A DNA stretch of 64,000 nucleotides from Desulfovibrio sp. (GTDB lineage: Bacteria; Desulfobacterota; Desulfovibrionia; Desulfovibrionales; Desulfovibrionaceae): NCBI GenBank assembly GCA_016208105.1, contig JACQYS010000020.1, positions 1 to 64,000 on the forward strand. The letters are read 5' to 3'. How positions within the stretch are numbered: the first letter of the stretch is position 1; each line of letters begins with the position of its first letter. Shown piece after piece: positions 1,434 to 53,728 of this stretch. Both the position numbers and the translations under genes were made by a program. The notes under the pieces are model-generated. The model worked only from the letters and a program-made list of their open reading frames with translations, ran no database searches and was not told where the DNA came from.

Positions 1434-1470
1434 CTCTCTATCCCTTCATTGTTGGCCTTCTTGACTCAAA

Positions 1471-1514
1471 ACAAAAACTGGGATTCCAAAAGTCAAGGCC
1501 TTTTGGAATCCCAG
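1471..1514 (-). terminator. Intrinsic terminator of the aminotransferase gene
   Basis: Perfect 14-base arms at 1478-1491 and 1501-1514 enclose a nine-base loop. On the minus strand the hairpin is followed by a T-rich run (TTTTTGTTTT) down to 1468. It sits about 30 bases after the aminotransferase stop. Confidence 0.85.
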
Positions 1515-1542
1515 GGGAGAGATCGCGTCTCCTGCGTCCCGC

Positions 1543-2730: not shown

Positions 2731-2940
2731 GTTGGTCTCCATTATGCCATTATGATTAATGAGCCACGGTCACTACCCCCACCGGCTCCATTCTTCAAGC
2801 TTGCCAGAAGCCAAAGAAGGGGCTACATCCGCCCGGCCTTCTTTGAAAACCACGCCCTCCGGGCGTTTAATCATGCGTTGCCGGCACCCGTTCATTTTGG
2901 CGGGTCTTCACAAACCCCGTTTTTCCGGTATTGATCACAT
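2731..2940. other. Divergent promoter spacer, nothing further recognised
   Basis: About 210 bases between the aminotransferase and U32 starts. It must hold the promoters of both genes, but no convincing -35/-10 pair, operator or hairpin was found. Confidence 0.4.
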
Positions 2941-7841: not shown

Positions 7842-8463
7842 CGTTTTTTACTCTCACCCTGGTCTTTCCTGGCTCTTCTCCATCGTCGCCGGGGGCCATT
7901 CCCCAGGCCATGCGCATGCGGCCATGCAACTCCAGGACCAGAGTCCTGCTCATTTCTATGAGGGGGAGTATCCCATGGATCGTGCGGCCCTCGGAACAGG
8001 CCACGCACCCTTTTGCTTCGAAAGCCGTGACGGCCCCTGCCGATACCCAAAACGGGAAGAGACGGCAATAATACGGTCTGGCCTCCCTGGGCAGCACACA
8101 TCCCGAGGAGGTTAGAAACGAACACCGTCCGTCAGGATGCGTGGCCAGGCGGAGATGCTCGCCATGACCCGGGAACAGTGCGGCCAGGTGCTTTCTGTCC
8201 TGGGGAAACAGACGCATCAGGTTGTCCAGAAATCTTTTGGAATTGGGCGCTCCGGTGAGCCCCCCCTTTTTGGGGCCGAATTCGACTATGCGCTGCCGTT
8301 CGATCTCCGAGACGGGGAAACAGAGATCCTCCTGACCGGGGGTAAGGCTGCAGCAGGTCGGGCCCATGGCCGCGCACCGGATGCAGACGAAGGCGTCTTT
8401 TTTTCTGTTCACTGGGTGGCAATCCTCAAGTACTCCGCTGCCATCTATGACCGCAACGGCCAT
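7834..8463 (-). CDS. YkgJ-family cysteine-cluster protein upstream of PBP1A
   Basis: A 209-residue soluble protein with the cysteine pattern of the YkgJ/UPF0153 family, predicted to bind zinc or iron: CIRCAAMGPTCC at about 27-38, then CSFLTSSGCVLPREARPYYCRLFPF at about 115-139, then a CVAC at about 153. The function of the family is unknown; some members are linked to protein N-methylation. The first cluster has C-x2-C-x6-CC spacing. AGGGA seven bases before the ATG supports the start. It overlaps PBP1A by eight bases, so it is in the same transcript. A second YkgJ-type gene sits in the Dlt-like operon at 45112. Confidence 0.85.
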   Translation of the reverse strand: MAVAVIDGSGVLEDCHPVNRKKDAFVCIRCAAMGPTCCSLTPGQEDLCFPVSEIERQRIVEFGPKKGGLTGAPNSKRFLDNLMRLFPQDRKHLAALFPGHGEHLRLATHPDGRCSFLTSSGCVLPREARPYYCRLFPFWVSAGAVTAFEAKGCVACSEGRTIHGILPLIEMSRTLVLELHGRMRMAWGMAPGDDGEEPGKTRVRVKNDA

Positions 8464-38890: not shown

Positions 38891-39308
38891 TACATCTATC
38901 TCCACTTTCTTGTTGTTATTGCGAGCAACGGCACCTACAACAGGCGCCATTCACGCACGACTTCTTCAAAGCATCAACCGTGCCAAACCACATGTTGGCA
39001 TTAGGAGCCGCTCGCAAGACACTCTCTGCGCAATACAACAACAAAAGTACGTTTTTTTCTCTTTCGACGTGCAGTTGATTACACTTTTTTCACTTCCCCC
39101 CTCGTCTGGGGCAGGGTGCGCCCCGGAAGCACAAGCAACAAACGGACACTGATCCAAGCGATTTGTGGTTCAGCCCGAACCCAAACCTGGCCCGCCTGTC
39201 ATCAAGGCCCTACCGGCCGCATTCACCCACAATCCGACCACGGTTCAGCCCTCCGTGGCTGGCTCGGAATTGACGAACACGGCGCTCGGCAAATACTATC
39301 TTGGTTCC
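38891..39308. other. Divergent spacer before eboD with a possible promoter
   Basis: 418 bases. TTGACG (39270-39275) and TACTAT (39294-39299) with an 18-base spacer would start transcription a few bases before the eboD ATG, which would make that mRNA almost leaderless. An in-frame extension of eboD back to 39165 reads as low-complexity and is not favoured. Confidence 0.35.
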
Positions 39309-40448
39309 ATGACAAAAATCATCCGACAGAGCATAGCGGTCTCGTATGACTTCCCGGTGATCTTTACCCGTAACGCCTTCGATCCCGGAAATCCCGTCCT
39401 CGCGGACATCCTGGCCCAAGCCGGGCCAGACCGGCACCGGCTGGCCGCCGTTGTGGACAACGGCGTGGCCCGGGCTTTTCCCGGGATGGAGCAGAAAATC
39501 GCCCTCTATTTCCAAAACAGGCCCGTGGGCCTCCTAGCCACGCCGGTTCTTACTGTTCCGGGAGGCGAAGGCGCCAAGGCGGATATGAGCGTTTACCAGG
39601 CGGTGCTCAACCTCATCTTCAACGCCAAGTTGTGCCGGCAATCCTTCCTGCTGGTGGTGGGGGGTGGCGCGGTGCTGGATTCGGCGGGTTTCGCGGCAGC
39701 CACGGCCCACAGGGGGGTGCGCCTGATACGAATGCCCTCCACAGCGCTTGGGCAAAACGATGCGGGGGTGGGGGTGAAAAACGCGGTCAACCTTTTCGGC
39801 CGCAAGAACTTCCTGGGGTCGTTTGCACCTCCATACGCGGTGGTGAACGATCATTCCCTGCTTGAAGGGTTGCCGCTGCGAGAACGCCGGGCAGGCTTGG
39901 CCGAGGCGGTCAAGATCTCGCTCATCAAGGACAAGGCTTTCTTTGAGAGACTCTGCCGCGACCAGGACAAGCTGATGGAGCTGGAATCCTCAGCATTCGA
40001 CTATTCCATTGAGCGTTGCGCCGAACTCCATCTGGAGCACATTGCCACCGGCGGGGACCCGTTCGAGTTCGGCTCTTCCAGGCCCTTGGACTTCGGGCAC
40101 TGGGCCGCGCACGCTCTGGAGGAAACCACCGGGGGCGAACTGGGGCACGGCGAGGCCGTGGCCATCGGAGTGGCGCTGGACAGCGTGTACTCCAACCTCA
40201 CCGGGCTTTTGCCGAAGCCGGACCTGGAGCGAATTCTGGCGCTCCTTCCTGGTCTGGGGTTCACCCTCTGGCACCCGGCTCTGGAGTCCCTGGACCTTGA
40301 AGCAGCCATGGAAGCCTTCCGGGAACACCTTGGCGGACGGCTTTTCCTAAGCCTCATCACCGGGCTCGGCTCAAGCGTGGAAGTAAACGAGGTGGATTTT
40401 AGGCTCATGGGCCTGGCCGTTGCCAGCCTCAAGGAGCGCTTCTCGTGA
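39309..40448 (+). CDS. eboD: EboD-like sugar-phosphate cyclase (3-dehydroquinate synthase fold)
   Basis: About 379 residues of the dehydroquinate-synthase fold. SYDFPVIFTRNAFDPGNPVLAD opens like EboD; VVGGGAVLDSAGFAAATAHRG holds the NAD loop; MPSTALGQNDAGVGVKNAVNLFGRKNFLGSFAPP is the cyclase motif. Zn ligands are in GLAEAVKISLIKD, DFGHWAAHALEE and GHGEAVAIG. EboD belongs to the ebo cluster, which takes part in transport or making of secreted natural products in several bacteria. Here only eboD and eboE are present. The upstream start is uncertain. It overlaps eboE by four bases (GTGA). Confidence 0.8.
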   Translation: MTKIIRQSIAVSYDFPVIFTRNAFDPGNPVLADILAQAGPDRHRLAAVVDNGVARAFPGMEQKIALYFQNRPVGLLATPVLTVPGGEGAKADMSVYQAVLNLIFNAKLCRQSFLLVVGGGAVLDSAGFAAATAHRGVRLIRMPSTALGQNDAGVGVKNAVNLFGRKNFLGSFAPPYAVVNDHSLLEGLPLRERRAGLAEAVKISLIKDKAFFERLCRDQDKLMELESSAFDYSIERCAELHLEHIATGGDPFEFGSSRPLDFGHWAAHALEETTGGELGHGEAVAIGVALDSVYSNLTGLLPKPDLERILALLPGLGFTLWHPALESLDLEAAMEAFREHLGGRLFLSLITGLGSSVEVNEVDFRLMGLAVASLKERFS

Positions 40449-41593
40449 ACGACAAGCGGCGCCTCCCCGTCACCTATTGCACCAACATCCACCCTGGCGA
40501 ATCCTGGGCGGCCACGCTCTTAAGCCTTGAAACGCACACTGTGGCCGTGAAAGACGCTGTCTGCCCGGCCAGCCCGTTCCCCGTGGGGCTTCGCGTGTCC
40601 GGACAGGCCAGCCGGGAGATCGACCACCGGGAAGCCGGACGGTTCAAGGAATGGCTCGACAGCAACGGCCTTTTCGTCGTCACGATGAACGGATTCCCCT
40701 ACGGAACGTTCCACGACAGTCCGGTCAAGGCCCAGGTATACCAACCGGACTGGCGCTCCCCGGTCAGGCTCGAATACACTCTGCGACTGGCCGAACTTCT
40801 GTCCCGATGGCTGCCTGAAGGAATGGATGGATCCATATCCACGGTTCCAGTGGGGTTTAAGGCCGACTTCGATCCCTCCCAGACAGAACTGGCCCGGCAA
40901 AACCTTATCCGAGCCTTGCAGGGTCTCGACGCTTTGGCGCAGCGCACGGGCAAACGCATCCGGCTCTCGCTCGAACCCGAGCCCGGCTGCTTGCTGGAAA
41001 CCACCCCCGAATTGGTGGTTTTTTTCGCCAACCTGAAAGTTTCAGACACACTCCGTGAACACCTGGCCGTCTGCTACGACTGCTGCCACCAGGCCCTACA
41101 GTTCGAAGATCCGGGCCAGTCGCTCAGGCTCTTGGAGGACAATTCGATTTGCATCGGCCACGTCCAGGTATCCTCGGCCCTGCACCTGCCCTGCCCCGAC
41201 CTTTCCCGCCTGTCCCGCTTCGACGAGCCGGTGTACCTGCACCAGTGTGTTGCCAGGCATGGAAACGGCAGCCTTGAACGCTTTGACGATCTGGGGCTGG
41301 CCCTGGGCGCAACCGGTGGCGCACACAAGGATACCCCGGGCGCTTGCGCGGAAGACACCGAGTGCTGGAGGGTGCATTTCCATCTGCCGGTCTTTCTGCC
41401 CGAACTTCCGGAATGCCTGACCACTCAGGAGTTTCTGAAACAATTCCTTCCGATGCTGCCAGCCGATGTTCCATTGGAGGTGGAGACCTACACCTTCGCC
41501 GTCCTCCCCAGAGAGCTTCAAACCGCAACAGTGGTGGAATCGATCGTCAGAGAAATCGAATGGGTGGATTCTTGCCGCCGCGGTTTGGTGTAA
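40445..41593 (+). CDS. eboE: EboE-like metabolite-traffic protein (TIM barrel)
   Basis: A 382-residue protein of the xylose-isomerase-like TIM-barrel fold. Features are RLPVTYCTNIHPGESW (the usual EboE start), NGFPYGTFH, LSLEPEPGCLLE and CYDCCHQALQFEDP (metal site candidates E/H/D) and HFHLPVF near 320. It starts with GTG inside the eboD stop. EboE is found in ebo clusters with EboABCDF; the other members are not in this window. It runs convergently into the Dlt-like operon with a terminator between the two. Confidence 0.8.
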   Translation: MNDKRRLPVTYCTNIHPGESWAATLLSLETHTVAVKDAVCPASPFPVGLRVSGQASREIDHREAGRFKEWLDSNGLFVVTMNGFPYGTFHDSPVKAQVYQPDWRSPVRLEYTLRLAELLSRWLPEGMDGSISTVPVGFKADFDPSQTELARQNLIRALQGLDALAQRTGKRIRLSLEPEPGCLLETTPELVVFFANLKVSDTLREHLAVCYDCCHQALQFEDPGQSLRLLEDNSICIGHVQVSSALHLPCPDLSRLSRFDEPVYLHQCVARHGNGSLERFDDLGLALGATGGAHKDTPGACAEDTECWRVHFHLPVFLPELPECLTTQEFLKQFLPMLPADVPLEVETYTFAVLPRELQTATVVESIVREIEWVDSCRRGLV

Positions 41594-41635: not shown

Positions 41636-41662
41636 AAAAACCCCGCCAAAAAGCGCGGGGTA
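41636..41662 (-). terminator. Terminator of the Dlt-like operon
   Basis: CCCCGC and GCGGGG arms around a CAAAAAGC loop (41641-41660), with TTTTTCTTTT on the minus strand just after. It is 28 bases past the adenylating-enzyme stop and also separates it from eboE. Confidence 0.8.
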
Positions 41663-41689: not shown

Positions 41690-43303
41690 TCAGCTTCCCC
41701 CAAGGCGTTCCCTTACAGCCTCGCTCACGGCTTTGCGATCCACTTTGCCGTTGGCATTGCGAGGTAACTCCTTAAAGAACAGCACACGGCCTGGGAGCAT
41801 GTACGAGGGCAGAAGTTTGGACACCTCCTCCAGAAGCGCTTCCTCGGCGTGTTCTCCGTCGCGGGCTGGGCCGGAAATGGCGATGGCCAGTTCCGGTTCG
41901 GCCGCCCCCGGCACGAGCAGGGCCGCTGTTTCCAATACCCCGGGCAGGCTTCCGAAAGCAGCCTCCACATCCTCCAGTTCCACACGCTGGCCGCGAATTT
42001 TCACCTGGTTGTCCGCCCTGCCCATGTAAAAGATCACGCCTGATTCGTCGGCCAGGGCCAGATCGCCAGTGTCGTAGACCATGTCCCCCAACTCCGGGTT
42101 GATGGGATTGACAATAAAGGCCTTGGCGGTTTTGTAGGGGTCCCGCCAGTATCCGGCGGTAACCTGCGCTCCGCGTATCATGAGCCGCCCGGCGGTTCCG
42201 GGAGGAACGGGCCGGTTGTCCTTGTCCAGGATCAGGCATTCGGCCTGGGCCGTGGGCAACCCGATGGGGATGGACTTGCCCGGAAGGACCGTGTCGATGG
42301 CATGGTGCGCCACCACGATGGTTGACTCTGTCGGGCCGTAGAAGTTGTACATGGCGCAATTTGGAAGGGCCTCGCGCCAAGCTTGGGCCATGCCGGGCAG
42401 CAGAGGTTCGCCGGCAAAGATGGCGGCCCGGAGTTCCGGGAATGCCCCAGGCGTGAGCTGCCGGGTCTTCACCATCATGGATATCACAGAGGGCACGCTG
42501 TTCCAGCAGGTGATGCCCCGCTTGCGGATGAACGGGCCGGGGAAGGCCTTTTCCCCAGCCGTCTCCAGCGGATGGACGCTGGCTCCCGCGAAGAACGCCC
42601 CGAAGATGTCCTGGACGGAAATATCGAAGGTGGGACTGGCGTGGTTGGAAAGACGGTCACCTGGGTTCACGGCCAGTCGCTTGACGAACCAATCCAGATA
42701 CGCCCTGGCATTGGCGTGGCGCACCATGACGCCTTTTGGGCGGCCGGTGGAGCCGGAAGTATAGAGCAGGTAGGCCAGATCGTGGCTGATGTTCCGCTGT
42801 GGCTTCGGGGCGGCGGCGTTTGCCGCGTCGTCCATGCAAGCCAGTTCTCCCGCAGCGGAGAGGCCTACGGGCAGGTCTTCAGGGAGCGCTCCGTCCATGA
42901 CCACCACGATCTTGGGCCTCAGCCCGCATTCCGAAATGGCGGCGGCCAGAAAAGGCAGCATCGCGTTTGAAGTCAACAGCGCTTCAGGCGCGGCGTCCTC
43001 CAGGACGCGGGCAATTCGCGAAGGCGGATTGTTCACTCCGAGCGGCAGATAGCAGCCGTCCGCCCTGAGCACGCCGAGCATGGCCGTCACGCACTCCACC
43101 GAACTTTCGAGCAGGATGCCCCCGCGCGCTCCCCGTGAAAAACCCGCCTCCTGCAGCAGCCTGGCCAACTTCCATGCCCGGCCGTGCAAGGCGGAATAGC
43201 TCACTGTCTCCTGGGAACCCACCACGGCCGGAGCGTCCGGGGTGCGCCCCGCCCAACCCTCCACGGCCATATGGATGAGATGTGGAGAGAGGGCTCCGCT
43301 CAT
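41690..43303 (-). CDS. DltA-like amino-acid adenylating enzyme
   Basis: A 537-residue ANL-type adenylation enzyme. Core motifs are intact: YLLYTSGSTGRPKGVMV (A3), NFYGPTESTIVVAHH (A5), YDTGDLALADESG (A7), GRADNQVKIRGQRVELEDVE (A8) and ANGKVDRKAV (A10 lysine). The FDISVQDIF segment holds the Asp that grips an amino group, so the substrate is an amino acid. It would load the carrier encoded just upstream. It is longer than typical DltA (about 500). The ATG at 43303 overlaps the carrier stop (ATGA). The exact amino acid is not readable; D-alanine by analogy. Confidence 0.88.
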   Translation of the reverse strand: MSGALSPHLIHMAVEGWAGRTPDAPAVVGSQETVSYSALHGRAWKLARLLQEAGFSRGARGGILLESSVECVTAMLGVLRADGCYLPLGVNNPPSRIARVLEDAAPEALLTSNAMLPFLAAAISECGLRPKIVVVMDGALPEDLPVGLSAAGELACMDDAANAAAPKPQRNISHDLAYLLYTSGSTGRPKGVMVRHANARAYLDWFVKRLAVNPGDRLSNHASPTFDISVQDIFGAFFAGASVHPLETAGEKAFPGPFIRKRGITCWNSVPSVISMMVKTRQLTPGAFPELRAAIFAGEPLLPGMAQAWREALPNCAMYNFYGPTESTIVVAHHAIDTVLPGKSIPIGLPTAQAECLILDKDNRPVPPGTAGRLMIRGAQVTAGYWRDPYKTAKAFIVNPINPELGDMVYDTGDLALADESGVIFYMGRADNQVKIRGQRVELEDVEAAFGSLPGVLETAALLVPGAAEPELAIAISGPARDGEHAEEALLEEVSKLLPSYMLPGRVLFFKELPRNANGKVDRKAVSEAVRERLGGS

Positions 43304-43542
43304 GATTCCAGCACCTCCTGTTCCCGCAAGAACACCTGAATGCTTTGCACGGAAGTCAACTCGCCAATCAAATCGGGGGAGATAGGCACGCCGGCCCAAT
43401 CCTCCAGGGCGAGAATAAGGTCCACGTGCGCAAGCGAGCTCCAGCCCCTGGTCTTACCCATGGCCCCGTCGGGGCCGATGTCTTCAACCGCCAGGGTTTT
43501 GCTGAAGAAACTGCTGAACTCCTGGATCGAACGTTTGGTCAT
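43300..43542 (-). CDS. DltC-like acyl/peptidyl carrier protein
   Basis: An 80-residue carrier protein, close to DltC in length. Helix 2 has GWSSLAHVDLILALEDWAG, where S36 (followed by Leu) is the phosphopantetheine site; the usual Asp before it is Ser. It is acidic and helical. It would carry the activated amino acid from the adenylating enzyme to the MBOAT protein. It overlaps the adenylating gene by four bases and follows the extracytoplasmic protein gene after an 88-base gap. Confidence 0.85.
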   Translation of the reverse strand: MTKRSIQEFSSFFSKTLAVEDIGPDGAMGKTRGWSSLAHVDLILALEDWAGVPISPDLIGELTSVQSIQVFLREQEVLES

Positions 43543-43630
43543 GGCAACTTCACTCTCTGGATGCTCCGTGCTTCAACGGAGACGGCGGCAAAACCGTCGT
43601 GCGTTTTACTCCGAAGGTCATTGTGACGCG

Positions 43631-44968
43631 TCAATTATAAACGACTCCAAGATTACGCATGAAAGGCCAATACGATGTAACCGTGGTGTACCATGTGACA
43701 GGAGTGGCCACGAACGGAAAGAATCCGAAGGCGATAGGCTGTGGAGCCATATTGGGAGGAACGCCGCACGTTGCCTGCGGGAAGGGGATTCCGAAAAAGT
43801 TACGGAGATCGCCCTGCATCTGCTGGCCGGGGAAGAGCTTCTCCTGGATGAACGCTCGTGCGAAAAGCCGGGCATGGATGAGCTTGCCCGTGATGTAGTA
43901 CATGATGCCGCGCCTGGCATCGGGTGCTTCGGCCACGTCGTTCAGGCAAAAAGCCTGCCTGGCCTCCCCGAGATCCACGATCCGCACGTTGTCGAACCCT
44001 GAGAGGGCGCGCCCGATTTCGCTGGTGAAGAAGGGGCGGTAAGACGTGTCCGCGTCCTTTTCCGTGAGGTTGTAAAGGGGCATGAGGTGCAGAACGAACA
44101 TGTTGCCCCGTTCCTTGGCCATAGCCGCGAATACCGTCAGGAACTGGAGATAGATGTCGCGGGCGAGCTTTGAGCGGAAGAGTTCGTCAGGCTTGAGAAA
44201 CGGCGTGACCGGCGATGTGGTCAAGACGGGAGCGCCATAATTATTGGAATGACTCCGCAGCATTCCGACCAGCTCGCGGTGGTCGATCTTGTCGAACTGA
44301 TTGAGCACGGCGTGCTCGAACCCGAAAAATGAGTCCAGGGCCTGCGCCACTTTGCCGCGCGCGGAGCGAAACGCCTTGAAGGCTTCGGCCATGAGATCTT
44401 TTGCGGGTGTGGCAGGGGGATGGACAGCTTTTTGCGAGTCCTCGTATTCGTCCAGCAGGGCGCGAAGTTTGGCGGTGTGGGGCGGCAGGGATGCGAAGCC
44501 GGCGTCGATCTCATCCAGCATGAGCCTGGCGTGGTATATTTCGAAGTCGAAAATGCCCAGAACCAACGCCCCCGGAACCGTGGTGTAGACCAATGTCTTG
44601 CCGCTGTTGGCCGTCAGCACGTCGTGCAGTACCTGGATATCGGCGTGGAGGCCGAAGTTCAGATCCGGGTTTCCCACGAATGTGAACCCGCCGGGCGCGC
44701 CGTGTTCCTCTTCGAGAACATAGTTGATCAGGCGCGGAGTGAAAGCCTTCTTCAGGTTCACCCCTGCTAGCCTTTGGGAGTAGTAGGCGTCGTGGCTCAT
44801 GACAATGCACCCCGAGAGATACATGAGATGCTCTCCCTGGATGGCACGCGGCCCGGTTACGTGCACGAACAGCGGTTCCTGGCTGAAAATGCGGACAGCG
44901 AAAATCAGGAAGAATCCGGCCGCGAAGGCACACACCGCCCAAAAACACGCCTTTCTAGAACTTGCCAT
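43631..44968 (-). CDS. Membrane-anchored extracytoplasmic protein in the DltD position
   Basis: A 445-residue protein with one N-terminal anchor helix (about 8-25) and a large extracytoplasmic part. The second half (FVLHLMPLYNLTEKDADTSY, then IVDLGEARQAFCLND and MYYITGKLIHARLFARAFI) fits the end of SGNH/DltD-type folds, where a final Asp/His block lies, but no clear GDS-type serine motif was found, so DltD-like is by position. It would transfer the aminoacyl group to a glycan. Its ATG lies 14 bases inside the stop region of the microprotein gene, so translation is coupled. Confidence 0.7.
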   Translation of the reverse strand: MASSRKACFWAVCAFAAGFFLIFAVRIFSQEPLFVHVTGPRAIQGEHLMYLSGCIVMSHDAYYSQRLAGVNLKKAFTPRLINYVLEEEHGAPGGFTFVGNPDLNFGLHADIQVLHDVLTANSGKTLVYTTVPGALVLGIFDFEIYHARLMLDEIDAGFASLPPHTAKLRALLDEYEDSQKAVHPPATPAKDLMAEAFKAFRSARGKVAQALDSFFGFEHAVLNQFDKIDHRELVGMLRSHSNNYGAPVLTTSPVTPFLKPDELFRSKLARDIYLQFLTVFAAMAKERGNMFVLHLMPLYNLTEKDADTSYRPFFTSEIGRALSGFDNVRIVDLGEARQAFCLNDVAEAPDARRGIMYYITGKLIHARLFARAFIQEKLFPGQQMQGDLRNFFGIPFPQATCGVPPNMAPQPIAFGFFPFVATPVTWYTTVTSYWPFMRNLGVVYN

Positions 44969-45110
44969 AGAAGACCTCGGGCGTGATGGAGAGCTCTGTT
45001 CCTCCGTTCGACGCCCAAAGCAGACCCAGCGCGATATGGCAAGCCAGACCGGTCAAAAACCAGTACATGATGTTCCCAGCGGTTGATTCAATGAACTTTT
45101 CAAATAGCAT
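44955..45110 (-). CDS. DltX-like single-helix microprotein (51 aa)
   Basis: A 51-residue protein below usual gene-calling limits. It has a charged start (MLFEKFIESTAGN), one membrane helix (about residues 14-34: IMYWFLTGLACHIALGLLW), and a short outer tail ending SITPEVFYGKF. The last residues give Y48-x-x-F51 at the very C-terminus. In DltX of Gram-positive bacteria a C-terminal FxYxxF motif has a tyrosine that takes the D-alanyl group from DltB. Here V46 replaces the first Phe. It starts one base after the YkgJ-type stop and overlaps the next gene by 14 bases. Confidence 0.78.
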   Translation of the reverse strand: MLFEKFIESTAGNIMYWFLTGLACHIALGLLWASNGGTELSITPEVFYGKF

Positions 45111-45111
45111 G

Positions 45112-45879
45112 TCAGGATCCTTGCGCTAAAAAATCGCCATGGACTCTTGAAAAGTCGTGATAGACGCCGAGCGCCATCTCCCTGATTGCCGGCGCGTCGA
45201 AGAGCCGTTTCCCGAGATACAGAAGCTCCCAGCGCTGCCAGAACGCCGCGCCGTCCAAAGACGCGAGCATGGCGTTTTTTTTCAGGTTTTCCAGGTAATT
45301 ATCAGCGGCACACTTGTATACTGCGAAATAAAACATCAGGAGAGGATGGTGCAGCGGTTTCAGGATGTCGCCGCTCTTCCAGGCCTCCATGTAGATGTCG
45401 CGGCGCTCGTTCCAGAGAGTGCACGCGGCCTTGCCTTCGCGAGCCAGGCAGGTGAGGTCGAAGATCGAGGCCGGATAGATATCGATCAATTCCGATTGGG
45501 CGTTGAATATGGGGAGGAAGGGATAGATACGGCAATGCAAGGGGCGCATCCGTTCGCCTCCGCAAACGCCTTTGAGTTTGCAATCCACGGCAACGAGGCG
45601 GATGGGGCCGGGACCGCCGAAATCGAAGACGATCTCGCGCGGGGAGGCGTCCGGCGGGATATGGCCGTTGGCCAGCATCCAGTCGTATTCGTCGCCGATA
45701 TGCAGGATGGACGTGCCTTCGGACGGCAGGAGGTTGAAGGTAAAGTCGCCATGGCGGATATCGCAGCAGTACCCCCCGCACGTTTCCCAGCAATTCTCCT
45801 CGAACACGAAGGAAGCCCTGGATATCTCCTCCCACGGGGGAGAAGCCGGCAAGGTCGCCATGGCATCCTGTCGCGTCAT
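45112..45879 (-). CDS. YkgJ-family cysteine-cluster protein in the Dlt-like operon
   Basis: A 255-residue soluble protein. Cysteine clusters match the YkgJ/UPF0153 family: CWETCGGYCCD near 30 and CKLKGVCGGERMRPLHCRIYPF near 100, plus a third cysteine near 144. It should bind zinc or iron; its reaction is unknown. It lies between the MBOAT gene (ATGA overlap at 45876-45879) and the microprotein (one-base gap), a tight arrangement that argues for a role in the same pathway. It differs in length from the other YkgJ gene at 7834. Confidence 0.8.
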   Translation of the reverse strand: MTRQDAMATLPASPPWEEISRASFVFEENCWETCGGYCCDIRHGDFTFNLLPSEGTSILHIGDEYDWMLANGHIPPDASPREIVFDFGGPGPIRLVAVDCKLKGVCGGERMRPLHCRIYPFLPIFNAQSELIDIYPASIFDLTCLAREGKAACTLWNERRDIYMEAWKSGDILKPLHHPLLMFYFAVYKCAADNYLENLKKNAMLASLDGAAFWQRWELLYLGKRLFDAPAIREMALGVYHDFSRVHGDFLAQGS

Positions 45880-47105
45880 GGCCAAGCTCTGCTCATTTCC
45901 AGCAGGTCATTGAAGTCCAGGGTCAGGGACAGACAGACGCAGACATAGCCTATTGTGAACACGGAGCAGAAAGTCCGGTAGATGAAGTTATCGCGTATGC
46001 CGCTCATATTGGGGATGAATTTGTCTGTCAGGCGCCCATATGCAATGGTTACCACCAAGCCAAAAGACAGGGCAAGGCCGTAGCTGATCCAGCCGATGGA
46101 GTCGCCATGCCATGCCCCCATCAAAAAGAACGTGAACACTATGGACACGCACGTGGCCATGAACGTGTCGACAATGATCTTCTTCTTCTTCAGTTTGTAC
46201 ATCATGTTGAAGAAGAGATAATCGCGAAACCATTGCGACAGGGAAATGTGCCATCTCTCCCAGAAGTTCTGTATGTTTCGAGAAAAGAGAGGATAGTTGA
46301 AATTTTCCGGAAGCGCGTAGCCCATGGCCCTGGCGCAGGCGATGGCACAGTCTGTATATCCGGAGAAGTTGAAATAGATATAGAAGAAGTAGCAGACGAG
46401 ACTTATCGCGAACTCGCCGGGAGAGTGGTTCGGCAGCGAAACAGCGGGATTTATCGCCGCGTATTTAAAGAACAGATTGGCTATGAAGAGTACCTTGATG
46501 ACGCCAACCGAACACCGGAAAATGATGTCGCGCAGGTCGGCCAATGCGAGAGGGGCCGGGTCGGCCGCGGCGTCCGCCTGGAACTGCCGGAATCTGTTGA
46601 TGGGCCCCGAAACAAAGGCAGGAAAAAAAAGCAGATAGTTGGCTGCGGCCAGCAGGGAGATTCTCTGGGTGGATTTGGCGCTGAACGCGAGAAGGTCCAC
46701 GCTCCTGAAAAACATGTACGACATGCCAATCCAGGCCAGGAAGCCGAGCTGCGGCTGATACGCACCGAATGTCAGGACATGACAGTAGTACGGGTATTTG
46801 AGGATGAGCATTGCCGCGAGAAACAACGAGGTGAGCACCGGATAGACGTATCCGGCTTGCTTGTTCCGCGCTAAAAGGGACGCCCCCCCCACGGCAAGCG
46901 TGCAATAGATTGCGACACCAAGGAAAAAGATCCCTTGCGATTTCCAGGAAAGCCCAGCAAGTGCTGCCAGCATGGCCACGTTGTATATGAGAAGCAGAAG
47001 TTGTCTGGATTTTGGAGAGGCGAAGCGCGTATTAATGACGCGGAATGCAATGACGCTTATTAGAAAAACAATGAAGAAAAAGAAGCTGGTGAAGTAGTTC
47101 GACAT
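45876..47105 (-). CDS. MBOAT-family acyltransferase, DltB/PatA-like
   Basis: A 409-residue inner-membrane protein with about ten helices. The MBOAT motif NFWERWHISLSQWFRDYLFF (His near 280) and the later catalytic His in MGAWHGDSIGW are intact. It is the operon head and would pass the aminoacyl group from carrier to the outer side of the membrane. The ATG at 47105 is set by homology of the helix start (MSNYFTSFFFFIVFL); it has no good ribosome site. A short open frame from 47155 (31 codons, AGAGGGG before it) overlaps this start in another frame and may couple translation. Confidence 0.88.
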   Translation of the reverse strand: MSNYFTSFFFFIVFLISVIAFRVINTRFASPKSRQLLLLIYNVAMLAALAGLSWKSQGIFFLGVAIYCTLAVGGASLLARNKQAGYVYPVLTSLFLAAMLILKYPYYCHVLTFGAYQPQLGFLAWIGMSYMFFRSVDLLAFSAKSTQRISLLAAANYLLFFPAFVSGPINRFRQFQADAAADPAPLALADLRDIIFRCSVGVIKVLFIANLFFKYAAINPAVSLPNHSPGEFAISLVCYFFYIYFNFSGYTDCAIACARAMGYALPENFNYPLFSRNIQNFWERWHISLSQWFRDYLFFNMMYKLKKKKIIVDTFMATCVSIVFTFFLMGAWHGDSIGWISYGLALSFGLVVTIAYGRLTDKFIPNMSGIRDNFIYRTFCSVFTIGYVCVCLSLTLDFNDLLEMSRAWP

Positions 47106-47703: not shown

Positions 47704-48864
47704 TTAAAACCCGCAGGTTTTGAGAATATCTCCCAGCACCTTGTCCGAATCAAAGAACTCCTCGGCAATTCGCCTGGCGGCCTTGCGGTGTGTGGGATAG
47801 TTCGAAACCACATTTTCGATGGCGGCTTTGGCGTTGTCCACTCCGTCGAAGGTCACGAGCCCCTCGCCAACGGGAAGGAACGTGCCGAATCCGGTGTCCT
47901 CCACGATGACAGGACGCCCTGAGGCCAGATAGCTGGCGGACCGGTCGGAAAACCACCCGGATTTGAGCTGGATGTTCTGCTCTTTGGCCACGGTGAACTC
48001 GGCCGTGGAGTTCAAGATATAGTCGTGGTAGGCCCATATGTCCTTGGAAAGGTCCAGGGCGTTTTTCACATGCCAGCCGTGCCCGGCGAAACGCTGGGCG
48101 TCCTCCTTCATGCCGCTCATGGTGAGGTCCAGCGTGACTCCAGGGAGCTTGCCGGGAAGATCGATGATCTGCTCGTACTTCTCGCTCTTGCGCCAGGAAA
48201 GCTTCTTGCCTTCATGCACGATGTCGCGCCCCTGGGCGTCCCAGTTGCCTATGGTGGTGAAGCCTGACCCTGGGCTGTCCACATTGGGCCACATGTCCAA
48301 CACGATGGGCACCCGGGTGGGAGTGTAGTCGATGCCGGAGAGGGCCACGCCGGTGGAGCCGGTGGGTATGTTGTGTCCCCAGGTGAAAAACACGTCGTGC
48401 TGCTTGAAATAGTCCCGGGTCCATTCGTCGTTTGCGATCTTGGACTGGGTGAAGATGGGGTCGGTGTCGATTATGGCCCGCACCTTGGCCTTCATGTAGT
48501 TTTCACGCAGGGGAATGACGCCGGACACGTTCAGGAAGAGATCCGCATCCAGGCAAAAACGGTCCAGGTCTTCGCGCTGCATCCCGTAGAGTTTGTTCTC
48601 GAAGATCGTGTTGTAAGCCCAGCTGTTGGGAAGCCCGATGCGTTCGAAGGCCTCGCCAACCACCTTGCGCCCGTGGCTGGAGTCAGCGGAGGCAAACCCC
48701 TTGTTGGGGTCAAAAGGCAGGGCCCATTCAGCGGTATCCTCCACGAAAACAACTTCATGCCCGAGGCGGGTAAGGCCTTCCATATAGTGCATGATCATCC
48801 ACACCTGGCCTCCCAGAGGGAAGCTCACCGCGTACCCGCCGACAACGATCTTCAACTTGCGCAT
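47704..48864 (-). CDS. CgeB-like glycosyltransferase
   Basis: A 386-residue GT-B-like protein. MRKLKIVVGGYAVSFPLGGQVWMIMHYMEGLTRLGHEV is a Rossmann start with the family G-G-Q motif, and SASYLASGRPVIVEDTGFGTFLPVGEGLVTF near 310 is the donor-side motif seen in CgeB/spore-maturation-type transferases. The donor is unknown. It starts three bases after the deacetylase stop, so the two are co-transcribed and probably act on the same glycan. Confidence 0.8.
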   Translation of the reverse strand: MRKLKIVVGGYAVSFPLGGQVWMIMHYMEGLTRLGHEVVFVEDTAEWALPFDPNKGFASADSSHGRKVVGEAFERIGLPNSWAYNTIFENKLYGMQREDLDRFCLDADLFLNVSGVIPLRENYMKAKVRAIIDTDPIFTQSKIANDEWTRDYFKQHDVFFTWGHNIPTGSTGVALSGIDYTPTRVPIVLDMWPNVDSPGSGFTTIGNWDAQGRDIVHEGKKLSWRKSEKYEQIIDLPGKLPGVTLDLTMSGMKEDAQRFAGHGWHVKNALDLSKDIWAYHDYILNSTAEFTVAKEQNIQLKSGWFSDRSASYLASGRPVIVEDTGFGTFLPVGEGLVTFDGVDNAKAAIENVVSNYPTHRKAARRIAEEFFDSDKVLGDILKTCGF

Positions 48865-48866
48865 AA

Positions 48867-49910
48867 TCAGGAACCTTTCTTAACGATGGACTTAAGTTGC
48901 GAGGCGGGCAGCGTCTTTTTCAAGTCGGCCATGCGGGTAGCCCCGTCACGAACAGTAACCAAGGGAATATTCTGCTGCTCCACCCAGGCGGAAACAGCGT
49001 CCATACTCTCGGCGGGATATGGTTCCCAGCCTATCTTGTCGCCCACGCCGTGGAAGCAGAAGACCACCCATCCGCCGTGCTCGAGGCAATGATCCTTCAT
49101 GATGCGGATAAGCTGCTGTGGCGAGTCGTGCTCGTGGACCATAAAACGCTTGATTGCATACGGGTCGAAGGAGCCGGGCCTGTTGTCTGAATCCCGCCCT
49201 GTGCAGGCGCGGGAATAGTACCGTTTGCTGACAACCTCGACATCGTCGGTCCAGTAGTTGTGCGGGGCAATGTAGGTATCAACGTTGAAACCATATTCTG
49301 TCAGGATTCGCTTGGAATCCTCCATCTCCCGCTGGTAGCAGCCCGCCCGGATGCCAAGTGCGGACGGATCGCCGCACCGAAATGGATGGACATGCAGTTC
49401 AGCAATGGCCTGGTCCAGCCAGTACGAGCCCTTGGTGGCGTCGACCTGCTCCAGATTCTCAACGGACTTGAGCGGTTTTCCATCTTGAAAGAGGGCGGCA
49501 ATCCGTTCGTAATCGTACATGGCCTGGTAGTGTTCAGGGTGTTTCTCGTCCACGCGCCAGCCCGTGATGATTTCCTGCTCGTAGGTTTTTGGTATCTGGA
49601 TCGGACGGCTGTGGGTCATGCTGTGGGAGGCTATTTCCCAGCCGCTTCGCTCGAGCTCGCGTACCTGCTCGAGGTTCATGTAGTCGTTGTTGCCAGACAG
49701 CATCCTGGTGACCACTATGCCAGCCGTGGCAACCTGTCCACGCCGTTTCAGGATGGGGAGTGAATACGTGTAGTTGGTCACTATGCCGTCGTCGAAAACG
49801 AACGTGACCATGCCCTTGGGGAGGCGGGACTCCGCGGCCAGCACGGGTGAAGGCAAAGCGCAGGCCACTCCCAATGCGGAGAGTACCCCAAGAAAACGGC
49901 GTCTGTTCAT
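48867..49910 (-). CDS. Tat-exported polysaccharide deacetylase
   Basis: A 347-residue CE4 protein. MNRRRFLGVLSALGVACALPSPVLAA is a Tat-like signal with twin Arg and R-F-L-G. The NodB domain has VTFVFDDGIVTNYTYS and ASHSMTHSRP (metal His pair), later FCFHGVGD. It would deacetylate or hydrolyse an exported glycan in the periplasm. The ATG at 49910 follows AGGAG by nine bases; a TTG six bases before is less likely. It is first of a pair with the CgeB-like gene. Confidence 0.85.
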   Translation of the reverse strand: MNRRRFLGVLSALGVACALPSPVLAAESRLPKGMVTFVFDDGIVTNYTYSLPILKRRGQVATAGIVVTRMLSGNNDYMNLEQVRELERSGWEIASHSMTHSRPIQIPKTYEQEIITGWRVDEKHPEHYQAMYDYERIAALFQDGKPLKSVENLEQVDATKGSYWLDQAIAELHVHPFRCGDPSALGIRAGCYQREMEDSKRILTEYGFNVDTYIAPHNYWTDDVEVVSKRYYSRACTGRDSDNRPGSFDPYAIKRFMVHEHDSPQQLIRIMKDHCLEHGGWVVFCFHGVGDKIGWEPYPAESMDAVSAWVEQQNIPLVTVRDGATRMADLKKTLPASQLKSIVKKGS

Positions 49911-50191
49911 GCGCAAGGACTCCTCGACTCCACGACTATCCCCAGCCCGTATACTCCTGAGGGCTGCATGCCGCAGGCATCTAGCAAGGACTGAGCCATT
50001 TAAGGCTTGGGGAGGAACATTCCCGACAGGCTGGCGCTGCGGGAAGGGTTCCAGTATAGGAAATCACATCCAAAATCAAACCGCCCCACTCCCGGATGAC
50101 GTTTTTTGCCCTCGCCGGGAAAAAATCGTAACCGGACACACCGCTTGACCCCGTCGTGCAACCTGCTAGGAGCCCTTTCTCGGAGGAACGT

Positions 50192-50656
50192 ATGCACAGT
50201 CCAAGAATTACCGCACTCCTCACCGGCTGTCTGCTCCTGACGGGCATGCTCCACCAGGCCTGGGCAGAATCGAAGTATTTCCAGGCATCGCAAAGGCATT
50301 TCGAAGCTCTGGCGGCCAAGGCCGCCACCCTGGCTACGGACCTGGACGCACCCGGCGAGAAAAACGCGTGCAACTATTTTACCGCCACAGCCATGATCTA
50401 CGCCATCCGGGCCCATGCCCTGGCGCAACTTTCCGACGTGGCCTCCCAGCTCAAGCTCCCCGAGGAGAAAGCCCTGTTGCGCCAGAAGCTGGTCGAAACC
50501 CAGGCCTACGCCAGCAGGTATATCCAGGGGGACCTCAAGGTGCTGGAGGGCTTGGCATCTTCCTCCAAAAACTCACGCATCCGGGATATCGGAATGAAAC
50601 TTATTAACGAGCTGCGCGTCTTCGATAACAACGCCTCTTCGGCAGTCAAGGGATAG
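50192..50656 (+). CDS. Exported helical hypothetical protein
   Basis: A 154-residue protein. Signal peptide MHSPRITALLTGCLLLTGMLHQAWA, then an all-helical mature part (SKYFQASQRHFEALAAKAATLATDLDAPG) with a single cysteine. GGAGG lies before the ATG. No family recognised. It converges on the O-antigen ligase-like gene with a short hairpin spacer (50681-50700). Confidence 0.65.
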   Translation: MHSPRITALLTGCLLLTGMLHQAWAESKYFQASQRHFEALAAKAATLATDLDAPGEKNACNYFTATAMIYAIRAHALAQLSDVASQLKLPEEKALLRQKLVETQAYASRYIQGDLKVLEGLASSSKNSRIRDIGMKLINELRVFDNNASSAVKG

Positions 50657-50747
50657 CGGGAATTCGTGCAGATATTTTCGCGTGACTAGCCCTGGTCACG
50701 GGGGATTCTCCCAAAAGGCACATGAATACTTGATCTCAAGTGGATCT

Positions 50748-52727
50748 CTACTGCGTGAGGCCGGGCCCGGCTATCCATGCTCCCAGAGAGCGGTGATCCT
50801 TCATCCCTGAAACCAACGGGTAGTAAAGCCTGGAAACGCTCAGGTAGACCCGCTCTCCGGCCCGGGCCGAACCCAGGGGAACCGTCAAGGTTGCGACGCG
50901 TCCGGTGGAACCGTCCAGCACGGCCTGCGAAAGCACCTTGCCAGGAGCCAAAAGTCGTACCCGAACAGCCAAGGCGGCCAGATCGGGATGGGTCAGCCCG
51001 ATGTCGAAGCTCCACGGCCCATCGCCTTGGAGAGTGAAGGACGAGGCCCCGGAACTCCACAGAACCATCCTTCCCTCGACCTTTTCAGGCCCCGCGAGCC
51101 CCTGCAGGTCTTGCGATCCGGACGGGGGGTAGCTCGCAAGCCCCAAACGGGCGGATGTGGCCGCGAACCCGGCGTTGTGCACATTCAGAAGCAGCGCTGC
51201 CGCGACGCACAAAGACACGGCCCAGCCGGCCCTACGTCCGGCGACAGCGGTTGACCAGCCCCCGTCCGAATCCTCCAGGCGCAGGCACCAGGCCAGCACC
51301 GCGAAGAACAACAGCCACACAGCCGGTATGTAGATCATCTCCTGGAACAAGCCGAAACCGTGAAACACCGCCAGCGAGAACAGCACGGCCAGACTCATGG
51401 CGTCTGCCCGCAAGCGATGCCTTCGAAACACAAGCTGGGCAGCCCGTCCGGCCAGGAGCATCCAGGCGGCAAGACCCAGCAAGCCCCCCCCGGCGAAAAT
51501 CTGGATGAAGAGGTTGTGGGTGGCCTCGAACACTTCTGCGTCCCGGGGGATTGCGCCGGACAGTTTGCTTTTGGAGGCGTCCATGAGGTGCGGATAGTGC
51601 CAGGCGTATGTCTCGTAACCCATCCCGGCAACTGGAGATTCCATGCCCACGAGAATTCCGCTTGCGAACACGGTGGGTCTGGGAGTCTCGGAAAACCGTT
51701 CCAGGCGCTGGCTGATCATGGTGGCGAGGGGAAAGTTGAGCAGCGAGATTCGAGTGACTGACAGCGCTCCGTATACCCCAAGCGCCACCACGGCCACCGC
51801 CGCGCCGCCAAGAGCCGCCCCTTTGGCCATGCGGCGATAGTTGAGGGCGAAAAGGTCGAAGCCACTCACTGCGGCCACCACGCAGGCCACCGCGAGAATT
51901 CCGGACACCAGCCAGGCGGCCCGGGCCATGGTCAGCACCATTGCGGCCAGGCACGCGGCCAAAATGGCGTAAAGAAGCCAGGCGCCCCGCTTTCTCCCCA
52001 GGAGAAAAAGCAGGGGAAAACCGACGCAGACATACTCCGCGAACCAGCCGGGGTTTAAAAAAAGCGACGTGAGACGGTCGCTCATGGCAAAGGCCTTGCC
52101 CCTGGCCAGAAAATATTCCGCCAGGCCAAAACCCAGGGCCGCAGGGAGGGACGCGGCCACGCCCCTGGCGAAATGCACCGGGGCCTCCCCTGCCTGAAAC
52201 CGGGACATCTCCCAGGCGAAAAGCGCATACAGGGCCAACCGGTCCATGGCGGCCAGGGAGTAGAAGGAGCTCTTGGCCACGGAATAGGCCGCCATGCGGG
52301 CAAATCCGAGAGGACCAAGCTCAAGGCAGGCCTGCAGGAACTCCCGGATCGGCAGGAGTGGCAGTCCGGCCAGCATGATCCCCACAAAGCCCAAAAGCCA
52401 CATGCGCAGCGGGCCGTAGGCTTGCGGAGCATGGTCTATGCGGTTGCCAAACAGCATGAGCAGGACCGCCATGCTCACAAGATAATGGAGCACCTGGGCG
52501 TGGGCCGAGTAGGACTGGAAGCCGAAGAAGACCAGCACGGCCCCAAAGGCGGCCAGCATGTGGGGAATGAACTGCCTGCGCCACAGGCAGAAAACGCACG
52601 CAACCGGAAGAGCCAAAACGAACAGCTTGCCCCGCCCGCTCATCTCCCAGCACAGCATGCCGGACAACAAGGCGTTGCAGGCAAGAAAGGCGGCCTTCAA
52701 GGCGAACACGGCGCGGGAAGGAGTCAT
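50748..52727 (-). CDS. O-antigen ligase/Wzy-type membrane protein
   Basis: A 659-residue protein with about twelve helices and a C-terminal soluble domain of about 150 residues. A large central loop (RLERFSETPRPTVFASGILVGMESPVAGMGYETYAWHY, then ATHNLFIQIFAGGGLLG) matches the Wzy_C/O-antigen ligase core motif with conserved His and Arg. The extra C-terminal beta domain is unusual and may bind glycan. It starts 11 bases after the upstream glycosyltransferase, so the two work on the same polymer. The open frame extends upstream but overlaps that gene. Confidence 0.8.
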   Translation of the reverse strand: MTPSRAVFALKAAFLACNALLSGMLCWEMSGRGKLFVLALPVACVFCLWRRQFIPHMLAAFGAVLVFFGFQSYSAHAQVLHYLVSMAVLLMLFGNRIDHAPQAYGPLRMWLLGFVGIMLAGLPLLPIREFLQACLELGPLGFARMAAYSVAKSSFYSLAAMDRLALYALFAWEMSRFQAGEAPVHFARGVAASLPAALGFGLAEYFLARGKAFAMSDRLTSLFLNPGWFAEYVCVGFPLLFLLGRKRGAWLLYAILAACLAAMVLTMARAAWLVSGILAVACVVAAVSGFDLFALNYRRMAKGAALGGAAVAVVALGVYGALSVTRISLLNFPLATMISQRLERFSETPRPTVFASGILVGMESPVAGMGYETYAWHYPHLMDASKSKLSGAIPRDAEVFEATHNLFIQIFAGGGLLGLAAWMLLAGRAAQLVFRRHRLRADAMSLAVLFSLAVFHGFGLFQEMIYIPAVWLLFFAVLAWCLRLEDSDGGWSTAVAGRRAGWAVSLCVAAALLLNVHNAGFAATSARLGLASYPPSGSQDLQGLAGPEKVEGRMVLWSSGASSFTLQGDGPWSFDIGLTHPDLAALAVRVRLLAPGKVLSQAVLDGSTGRVATLTVPLGSARAGERVYLSVSRLYYPLVSGMKDHRSLGAWIAGPGLTQ

Positions 52728-52738
52728 GCGAGGGCTCT

Positions 52739-53728
52739 CTAGCCCAACCGCTCCCAGAAATCGAGCGTGGCCTTTCGCTGCGGGCCAAGCCCGTATGCCT
52801 GAGCCGTGCGGGCGCAGCCGTCCAGGACCTGAAGGAGAGGGTCGCCCCCCGCGGACCACAATCCCAAGGCGTTTTCCAGGGCCAGCGACGCCCCGAGCAC
52901 ATCGTTATCCGGGCTGAAGAAGCCGTTTCCTCCCCACCCGACGGAATCCATGGGGCACTCAGGCACATACCTGCCAGGCGCGGCCTGACGCATGTAGTCC
53001 CACCCGCCGAACCCGGCGAACCCAACGGGTATGGCCCCGCTGGCCATTGCCTCCAAGGGCGGCAGCGGGCAGCCCTCGGGAAAACCCGTGGCCAAAAAGA
53101 CATGGCTTTGACCCAAGGCTCTGGCCACGCCGGCCTGATCCATTCCCTGGATTTCCAGCCATGCGGGCGAAAAGCGCCCCCTGGCCTGGATGACGGCCTT
53201 TATCTGGTCGGCCAGGGCCTTATTCTTGCGGGGCATGTAGGCCACAGTAAGCGTTTCCGGTTTGTCCGCCGGAGCCTGAAAGAGTTCCAGGTCGATGCCT
53301 GGGCGCAGGATGGGAGCCTTCACACCCAAGCTCTCTTCAATAAACCAGGAAACCGGCCGGGACACGGCCATGAACGAGACACCCAGACTGCGCCAGTCCA
53401 CCCCTTCGGGCAGGCCCGTAAACAGGTAGGCCCAGTTCTGGACGTACACCAGGCAGCGCGACCCGGCCCGAAGCCCAGGAGCCAGCGCGTTCACCCAGCC
53501 CTCCGGCACCACCCAGACGTCGTCCGACTGTAGGTTCGCGTCCGCGAAATCCACCTCGGGCAGCCCTTGGGAATCCGGCCGCCAGCCGGCCCGCTCCCGC
53601 AACACCAGCGAGACGTCGTGCCCGGCATCGCGCAGAAAACCGGCCATGCGGCACAGAACCGCAACCCCTCCTGCCGCCTTGCGCACCGGAGGAATAAAAA
53701 AGAGAGTCCTGGACTGTTTGGTTTGCAT
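52739..53728 (-). CDS. Glycosyltransferase family 4 (short form)
   Basis: A 329-residue GT-B protein. The start FFIPPVRKAAGGVAVLCRMAGFLRDAGHDVSLV and the donor motif LATGFPEGCPLPPLEAMASGAIPVGFAGFGG (E-x7-E with P-P-L-E-A-M-A-S-G) place it in GT4-like transferases. It is first in an operon with the ligase-like gene and lies divergent from the phosphofructokinase gene. Confidence 0.82.
   Translation of the reverse strand: MQTKQSRTLFFIPPVRKAAGGVAVLCRMAGFLRDAGHDVSLVLRERAGWRPDSQGLPEVDFADANLQSDDVWVVPEGWVNALAPGLRAGSRCLVYVQNWAYLFTGLPEGVDWRSLGVSFMAVSRPVSWFIEESLGVKAPILRPGIDLELFQAPADKPETLTVAYMPRKNKALADQIKAVIQARGRFSPAWLEIQGMDQAGVARALGQSHVFLATGFPEGCPLPPLEAMASGAIPVGFAGFGGWDYMRQAAPGRYVPECPMDSVGWGGNGFFSPDNDVLGASLALENALGLWSAGGDPLLQVLDGCARTAQAYGLGPQRKATLDFWERLG

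Follow-up and report, generated by a model that had tools for sequence, protein, structure and literature searches.

A Dlt-like gene unit with a variant DltD-like protein and a cysteine-cluster protein in Desulfovibrio sp.

The gene unit

We have studied a stretch of 64,000 nucleotides (nt) of Desulfovibrio sp. (assembly GCA_016208105.1, contig JACQYS010000020.1, positions 1 to 64,000), which we will call the window. On its minus strand, between positions 47105 and 41690, there is a unit of six genes similar to the dlt operons. They code for an acyltransferase of the MBOAT family, a cysteine-cluster protein, a microprotein, a membrane-anchored DltD-like protein, a carrier protein and an amino-acid adenylating enzyme (Table 1). 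The unit is real: the coordinates and overlaps given in a preliminary description, which was made from the sequence alone, are confirmed, and five of the genes recur in six genomes. These six recurring sets rule out a chance row of genes. What is new in the unit is the variant DltD-like protein and the presence of the cysteine protein inside a Dlt-like set of genes.

Table 1. Features of the six-gene unit, in the order of transcription
Feature	Position	Strand	Characteristics
DltB-type MBOAT acyltransferase	45876..47105	-	409 amino acids (aa), short form without C-terminal shuttle motif; ATG at 47105; WHGD His kept
Cysteine-cluster protein	45112..45879	-	255 aa; CWx2Cx3CC + C100, C106, C116, C153; remote YkgJ/PF03692 relative
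DltX-like microprotein	44955..45110	-	51 aa; one hydrophobic stretch; C-terminus VFYGKF; candidate acyl-shuttle Tyr48
DltD-like membrane-anchored, SGNH-type protein	43631..44968	-	445 aa; without GSS, without DxxH; invariant Cys54
DltC-like carrier protein	43300..43542	-	80 aa; candidate phosphopantetheine Ser36 in GWSSL
DltA-like amino-acid adenylating enzyme	41690..43303	-	537 aa; pocket code DIQNIAFIVK
Terminator-like hairpin, then T run	41640..41661	-	just past last stop; possible end of unit

The genes are tightly packed. The MBOAT stop overlaps the start of the cysteine gene by 4 nt, a single nucleotide separates the latter from the microprotein gene, the microprotein gene overlaps the DltD-like start by 14 nt and the carrier stop overlaps the start of the adenylating enzyme by 4 nt. 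Of the five junctions only that from the DltD-like gene to the carrier gene has a real gap, of 88 nt. The window contains 11 terminator-like patterns, compared with 7.7 +/- 2.9 in shuffled sequences, so the hairpin gives weak support for the end of the unit. In Pfam and NCBIfam only the MBOAT and the adenylating enzyme have a domain match above cut-off, the other four proteins have none; three of the six proteins were scanned as slightly or clearly longer open reading frames (ORFs).

Recurrence in other genomes

Among 348 genomes of the class we have found the MBOAT, the microprotein, the DltD-like protein, the carrier and the adenylating enzyme together in six, with different gene orders: in the genome of the window (G000) and in G002, G490, G003, G005 and G006. 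The cysteine gene lies within the sets of G000, G002 and G490. It was not found in G003, G005 and G006 by a profile search of the 348 genomes, eight of which gave a match. A profile of three DltD-like proteins detected weaker relatives in these last three genomes, each of them in the same kind of set; marginal DltD-like matches (E about 8e-4) are present in G014 and G613. The profile of the six MBOATs recovers its own rows with E values of 8.7e-177 or lower and has its next match at 3.7e-55; no seventh set was found with it among the 348 genomes, with up to five candidates scored per genome.

Few candidates were also scored in the other profile searches, at most seven per genome for the cysteine profile and five for the DltD-like one. 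The cysteine, DltD-like and MBOAT profiles were built with four, three and six genes of the class itself, which are matches by construction. The finds beyond the profile rows are those in G490, G506, G667 and G701 for the cysteine profile and in G003, G005 and G006 for the DltD-like profile. Two of the six sets are near-copies: the DltD-like proteins of G003 and G006 are 92.7% identical, and the assembly of G006 is 66% complete. In a sample of 395 genomes of the phylum, which may not have included the other genomes with sets, a single DltD-like query matched only G000.

The trees place the window differently. The MBOAT tree groups it with G002 (91/98, not starred), the tree of adenylating enzymes with the sets that have no cysteine gene (100/99); long branches are flagged. 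The disagreement may be due either to a mosaic origin of the unit or to a long-branch error. As judged from these trees, a single event can account for the presence of the cysteine gene in some sets and its absence from others.

The acyltransferase and its microprotein

The MBOAT of the window, scanned as a longer ORF, matches the DltB family TIGR04091 with an E value of 1e-59, below the curated cut-off. Among solved structures, DltB is the only match to the profile of the six MBOATs at E<=0.001 (E 7e-52). The WHGD motif is invariant in all six, and all six are devoid of the C-terminal FxYxxF shuttle motif. A separate microprotein is found instead in every set, with a single helix, one hydrophobic stretch and a C-terminus of the form [FY]YxxF: VFYGKF, VYYAQF, GYYSQF and, in three sets, TFYGAF. 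They agree with Y-x-x-F and not with the full FxYxxF, with the aromatic residue at -1 instead of -2. This ending is rare: the window has 425 ORFs with lengths of 35-100 aa, and only the microprotein ends in Y-x-x-F. The microprotein had been described as DltX-like, which is supported by its presence with the MBOAT in the six sets.

In the Dlt pathway, DltB moves D-Ala from DltC to the Tyr in the C-terminal FxYxxF of DltX; the accessible part of the same source reports this acyl-Tyr shuttle for DltX and PatA, and other MBOAT pathways with the motif fused to the MBOAT (PMC12148441). Both forms occur in our material. The MBOAT search listed 40 matches, with loci for 30, and we have examined the 24 loci which do not belong to the six sets. 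The fused motif ends 21 of them, L092 and L107 are of the short DltB type found in a classical operon, and L088 has no complete ORF by the criteria used. Six further MBOAT genes of G000 and G002, placed in the tree, all end in FIYxxF. The acyl-Tyr shuttle is thus found in split and fused forms inside the same two genomes.

The DltD-like protein

The AlphaFold2 model of this protein has a predicted local distance difference test (pLDDT) score of 55.6, a low confidence. In a VIA-align comparison of that model the top row is the DltD of E. faecium (Z 10.4, 234 aligned residues, root-mean-square deviation 4.4), and the other top rows, which lie within about 1 of each other (Z 9-10.4), belong to PatB, to several esterases and to three further DltD. 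The model thus suggests, with low confidence, that the DltD-like protein resembles DltD in fold. It had been described simply as a membrane-anchored extracytoplasmic protein; we can now call it DltD-like, outside the curated DltD family PF04914.

GKL and Asp332 are invariant in the six DltD-like proteins. The motif G[SA]S is present in the three sets which have no cysteine gene (G003, G005 and G006). In four MAFFT modes the window sequence LMYLSGC aligns with MFFGSSE of classical DltD, with Gly opposite the second Ser; in G002 this residue is Ala. Where the cysteine gene is part of the set, an invariant Cys, number 54 in the window protein, stands one column past the Ser and opposite Glu, Tyr or a gap. 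This offset weakens the reading of Cys54 as a nucleophile; the alignment is rich in gaps here, and a shift of one residue would put Cys54 on the DltD Ser. The place of the nucleophile within GSS is the one we take DltD to have. To judge from these motifs the active site is altered relative to classical DltD, and Cys54 may take part in it. As natural variants, such proteins could be used to study the transfer step that is reported to depend on Ser.

The cysteine-cluster protein

We have aligned nine relatives, two of which are 98% alike. Of the columns, 16 are invariant; Cys occupies eight of these, and the others include Trp, Glu and Pro. The family pattern is CX3CX3-4CC, CX3CX3CC in the window protein. 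No match was found in Pfam or NCBIfam at E<=10 for five members. The comparison of the family profile with one of PF03692 proteins, for which 31 loci had yielded 26 proteins and 12 of these were used, gave an E value of 2.4e-4 in hhalign (probability 43.7, score 34.7). None of 100 column-shuffled controls scored as high (mean 13.1, maximum 22.3), and two unrelated control profiles gave E values of 0.17 and 0.083. These values point to a remote relative of YkgJ/PF03692. The name YkgJ used in the preliminary description is therefore retained only as a remote profile relation, one that Pfam and NCBIfam do not support at E<=10.

According to the accessible part of the source, FliB has a CX4CX3CC pattern, eight conserved Cys and one [4Fe-4S] cluster and methylates lysine in a reaction dependent on S-adenosylmethionine, and cysteine motifs of the PF03692 kind are attributed to zinc or iron chelation (PMC8598068). 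The cysteine protein is probably metal-binding. A search for the FliB family in 21 relatives gave one weak match, in G039, which overlaps a PF03692 match. The structure model has a pLDDT of 82.8 and 48 weak matches in Foldseek; the search of solved-structure sequences with the family profile gave no useful match, as was also the case for the DltD-like profile. The window has a second cysteine-cluster protein at 7834-8463 (-), with CIRC...TCC and no Pfam match.

Genomic partners of the cysteine gene

In the eight genomes of the class which contain the cysteine gene, its cluster always includes an adenylation gene (8/8) and a carrier ORF (8/8). The MBOAT set is beside it in three genomes and is absent in the other five. 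It was the cysteine gene that led us to the adenylation genes outside the MBOAT sets, an association by construction when read in that direction; the informative count is the 8/8. The preliminary description had taken the gene position, between the MBOAT and the microprotein, as an argument for a metal-binding part in the pathway. We reject it as an MBOAT partner, since three of the six sets do not have the gene and five genomes have the gene without an MBOAT set. With regard to conservation with the MBOAT, the microprotein has it in all six sets and the cysteine gene in three. Gene order alone was misleading.

Its presence in half of the sets, and with adenylation and carrier genes in all eight genomes, indicates that the cysteine gene follows the formation of the aminoacyl-carrier and not the acyltransferase. 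The protein seems to belong to the amino-acid-loading half of the pathway. From these neighbourhoods, adenylation enzyme, carrier and cysteine protein may be read as a cassette which feeds several acceptors. In the five genomes without the MBOAT set, other genes for acyl transfer are found nearby. In L008 this is a ketoacyl-synthase-III-like gene. In L019 the adenylation gene is separated from the cysteine gene by two genes, and the carrier gene lies a few genes away. Genes of the AAC(3) family are found near the cysteine gene in L019, in L031 (the L020 locus) and, by eye, in the near-copy L009, and a PglD-like gene was recognised by eye in L017.

In L031 (probably S. magneticus pDMC1) and L009 (probably a plasmid of S. 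carbinolicus) the adenylation, carrier, cysteine and AAC(3)-family genes are on plasmids. L031 also has a gene of the CDP-glycerol glycerophosphotransferase family near the cluster. Outside the class we have found the cysteine gene in L006, which codes at 1592-2266 (-) for a protein made mostly of tandem GEHMQ repeats. In 194 genomes of the class to which this genome belongs we found no further relative.

Carrier and adenylating enzyme

The carrier Ser36 is invariant in the six sets, within GWSSL in the window and GWDS in the other five. The window carrier has no Pfam match; that of the relative L018 matches PF00550. The adenylating enzyme, scanned as a longer ORF, matches TIGR01733 (1.7e-106) and, under the cut-off, the DltA family TIGR01734 (1.3e-77). 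The possibility that it is a fragment of a nonribosomal peptide synthetase (NRPS) is rejected: a stand-alone enzyme and carrier accompany the MBOAT in six sets, and its closest relatives found, 57-59% identical, belong to the MBOAT operons of G005, G006 and G003. A location of its homologues in NRPS clusters, which the preliminary description had named as evidence against its reading, is not what we find for these closest relatives.

The residue facing what we take to be Asp235 in the pocket numbering of GrsA is Asp in each of the 13 adenylating enzymes that we compared, in line with alpha-amino acids as substrates. The rest of the pocket is more variable. The sets with the cysteine gene have the codes DIQNIAFIVK (window), DTLLVYMVLK (G002) and DVFCLITIFK (G490); those without it have DIHN[TV]ANIVK. 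Outside the MBOAT sets, four of five enzymes, two of them from near-copy loci, have DLHFLCLIAK and the fifth has DLFFLCLVYK. The classical enzyme (L110) has DLFVLCTVAK.

Comparison with known systems

The unit shares with the Dlt pathway, by which Gram-positive bacteria attach amino acids to polymers of the cell wall, the adenylating enzyme, the carrier, a DltB-type MBOAT, a separate YxxF microprotein and an anchored SGNH-type protein. It differs by its DltD-like protein, which has no PF04914 match, GSS or DxxH but has Cys54, by the extra cysteine protein, by a microprotein which ends in [FY]YxxF rather than FxYxxF and does not match PF12459, and by a pocket code other than that of L110. The preliminary description already mentioned dlt-like sets in a few Gram-negative species, and operons with a DltX are known in Dickeya and Pectobacterium, according to the accessible part of the report (PMC5541007). 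They also combine Dlt genes with a DltX-like microprotein; the sequences compared here were those of L110 and L111.

A classical dlt operon is present in another genus of the same family (g42), in L110 (2723-7242) and L111 (about 400-4810). The DltD of L110 matches PF04914 with an E value of 4e-61, and both DltD have GSSE and DEIH. Both operons have a candidate DltX, an ORF of 50-62 aa which ends in FVYNAF. No cysteine gene was seen in the stretch read around them.

The PatA/PatB and AlgI-type pathways, which combine an MBOAT with an SGNH partner, resemble the unit in these two proteins and in the acyl-Tyr shuttle motif. They differ in that the motif is fused to the MBOAT and that PatA has acetyl-CoA as donor, while the window has a separate microprotein, a carrier and an adenylating enzyme. 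The cysteine protein shares an N-terminal cysteine cluster with FliB and the YkgJ proteins of PF03692, and with FliB also the eight conserved Cys; unlike them it has no match to either family model, and its proposed substrate is an aminoacyl-carrier, not a protein lysine. We have found no paper that deals with YkgJ and an acyl carrier protein together in the literature searched, which lacked most subscription papers.

Proposed pathway and alternatives

The six genes may form a Dlt-like pathway which makes aminoacyl esters at the inner membrane. The adenylating enzyme would activate an alpha-amino acid and load it on the carrier, as its family indicates. The cysteine-cluster protein, placed here by its gene neighbourhood, would come next and modify the loaded carrier ahead of the transfer. 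It would probably be an iron-sulfur enzyme, and a first guess at its reaction is methylation of the amino nitrogen, by analogy with FliB and lysine. The MBOAT, by analogy with DltB/DltX and PatA, would then bring the acyl group to the other side of the membrane and onto Tyr48 of the microprotein, in agreement with the motif and the split architecture. In the last step the DltD-like protein, with an active site that is changed and may involve Cys54, would transfer it to a hydroxyl group on a polymer outside the cytoplasm. We consider the four steps as a whole to be somewhat probable. If correct, they would give an example, open to experiment, of an amino acid that is modified while bound to its carrier and then exported by way of an MBOAT. 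They might also assign a first function to a cysteine-cluster family named by none of the curated models used here.

A number of observations weigh against this pathway. The FliB model NF038110 has no match in five cysteine proteins at E<=10 and none in G000 or G002 at 0.001, and Foldseek found no solved fold resembling the structure model. As far as the sequences go, the likeness to FliB is one of pattern only, and the methylation reading rests on that pattern. Half of the MBOAT sets do not have the cysteine gene. The near-copies L009 and L020, 98% alike, are both counted among the eight genomes with the gene, and L006 has no carrier ORF within 16.7 kb and no adenylation gene seen in the ORF list of that stretch. 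The three sets that include the cysteine gene each have their own pocket code, so the amino acid need not be the same in all of them. The DltX model PF12459 has no match to the microproteins of the sets; it also misses the candidate DltX of the classical operon (L110), so its silence says little. Concerning the DltD-like protein, the similarity to DltD comes from a low-confidence model, for which Foldseek alone gives no match under 0.001; the profile comparison of the family with classical DltD fails (E 0.44), and PF04914 matches no protein of the six sets, compared with 4e-61 for the DltD of L110. D-x-x-H is absent from the six proteins and G[SA]S from those of the window, G002 and G490, the sets with the cysteine gene. 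Without DxxH in six and also without GSS in three, the DltD-like proteins may not be catalytic in the manner of DltD.

The unit could also serve ordinary D-alanylation in a Gram-negative cell, as a classical DltABCDX operon in which the cysteine protein is an unrelated passenger. Its gene types are those of a classical dlt operon, DltB is the only solved match of the MBOAT, and another genus of the family does have a classical operon with a DltX-like gene. We find this unlikely when the two are compared in detail: the classical DltD of L110 has the PF04914 match, the GSS and the DxxH that are missing in the window, the pocket code DIQNIAFIVK is not the classical DLFVLCTVAK, and the passenger accompanies adenylation and carrier genes in the eight genomes of the class. 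Another alternative is that the cysteine protein is a zinc- or iron-binding structural partner, or a chaperone, of the carrier or the adenylating enzyme, with no catalytic role. The chelation attributed to motifs of the PF03692 kind (PMC8598068, in its accessible part), a model without a known fold and the three sets that do without the gene agree with such a partner. Yet a single structural zinc site would not require eight invariant Cys and, in addition, invariant positions with Trp, Glu and Pro, and FliB, with a similar pattern, is an enzyme according to the same source; a purely structural role appears improbable to us.

Instead of the carrier, the cysteine protein might serve the DltD-like protein, for example by maintaining the thiol of Cys54. 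The three sets with the cysteine gene have Cys54 and no GSS, and the three without it have G[SA]S. These latter form one group in both trees and a single event suffices; the association of Cys54 with the cysteine gene has therefore no statistical weight. Since neither such a DltD-like protein nor this MBOAT set is present in five of the genomes with the cysteine gene, a service to the DltD-like protein looks very doubtful. The Dlt-like pathway of four steps is the reading that we prefer. A much more specific version of it is conceivable, as a long shot: a FliB-like iron-sulfur enzyme would alter the carrier-bound amino acid, for example by an N-methylation that gives it a permanent positive charge, and a relative of DltD, its active site rebuilt and perhaps with a Cys nucleophile, would then esterify a Gram-negative surface polysaccharide, the adenylation enzyme, carrier and cysteine protein being a portable cassette for different acceptor enzymes.

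Acceptor and neighbouring genes

The acceptor is more likely to be a surface polysaccharide than a teichoic acid. The window has a SIS-domain, gmhA-like gene at 59484, and the idea of a Dlt-like pathway in a cell with such a gene, already put forward in the preliminary description, is supported: DltB is the only solved-structure match of the MBOAT profile, and five of the genes recur together. Upstream of the unit on the same strand, 47704-53728 (-) codes for a glycosyltransferase-like protein (under cut-off), a polysaccharide deacetylase, a Wzy_C ligase/polymerase and a weak glycosyltransferase-like protein. These genes are only candidates for the source of the acceptor polymer and are not assigned to the pathway. 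Neither polysaccharide genes nor a dehydroquinate-synthase/EboE pair were noticed beside the other sets, where no search was aimed at them. In the window this pair of overlapping genes lies at 39165-41593 (+), convergent with the operon: one is dehydroquinate-synthase-like and the other is EboE (NF035939, 1.8e-126).

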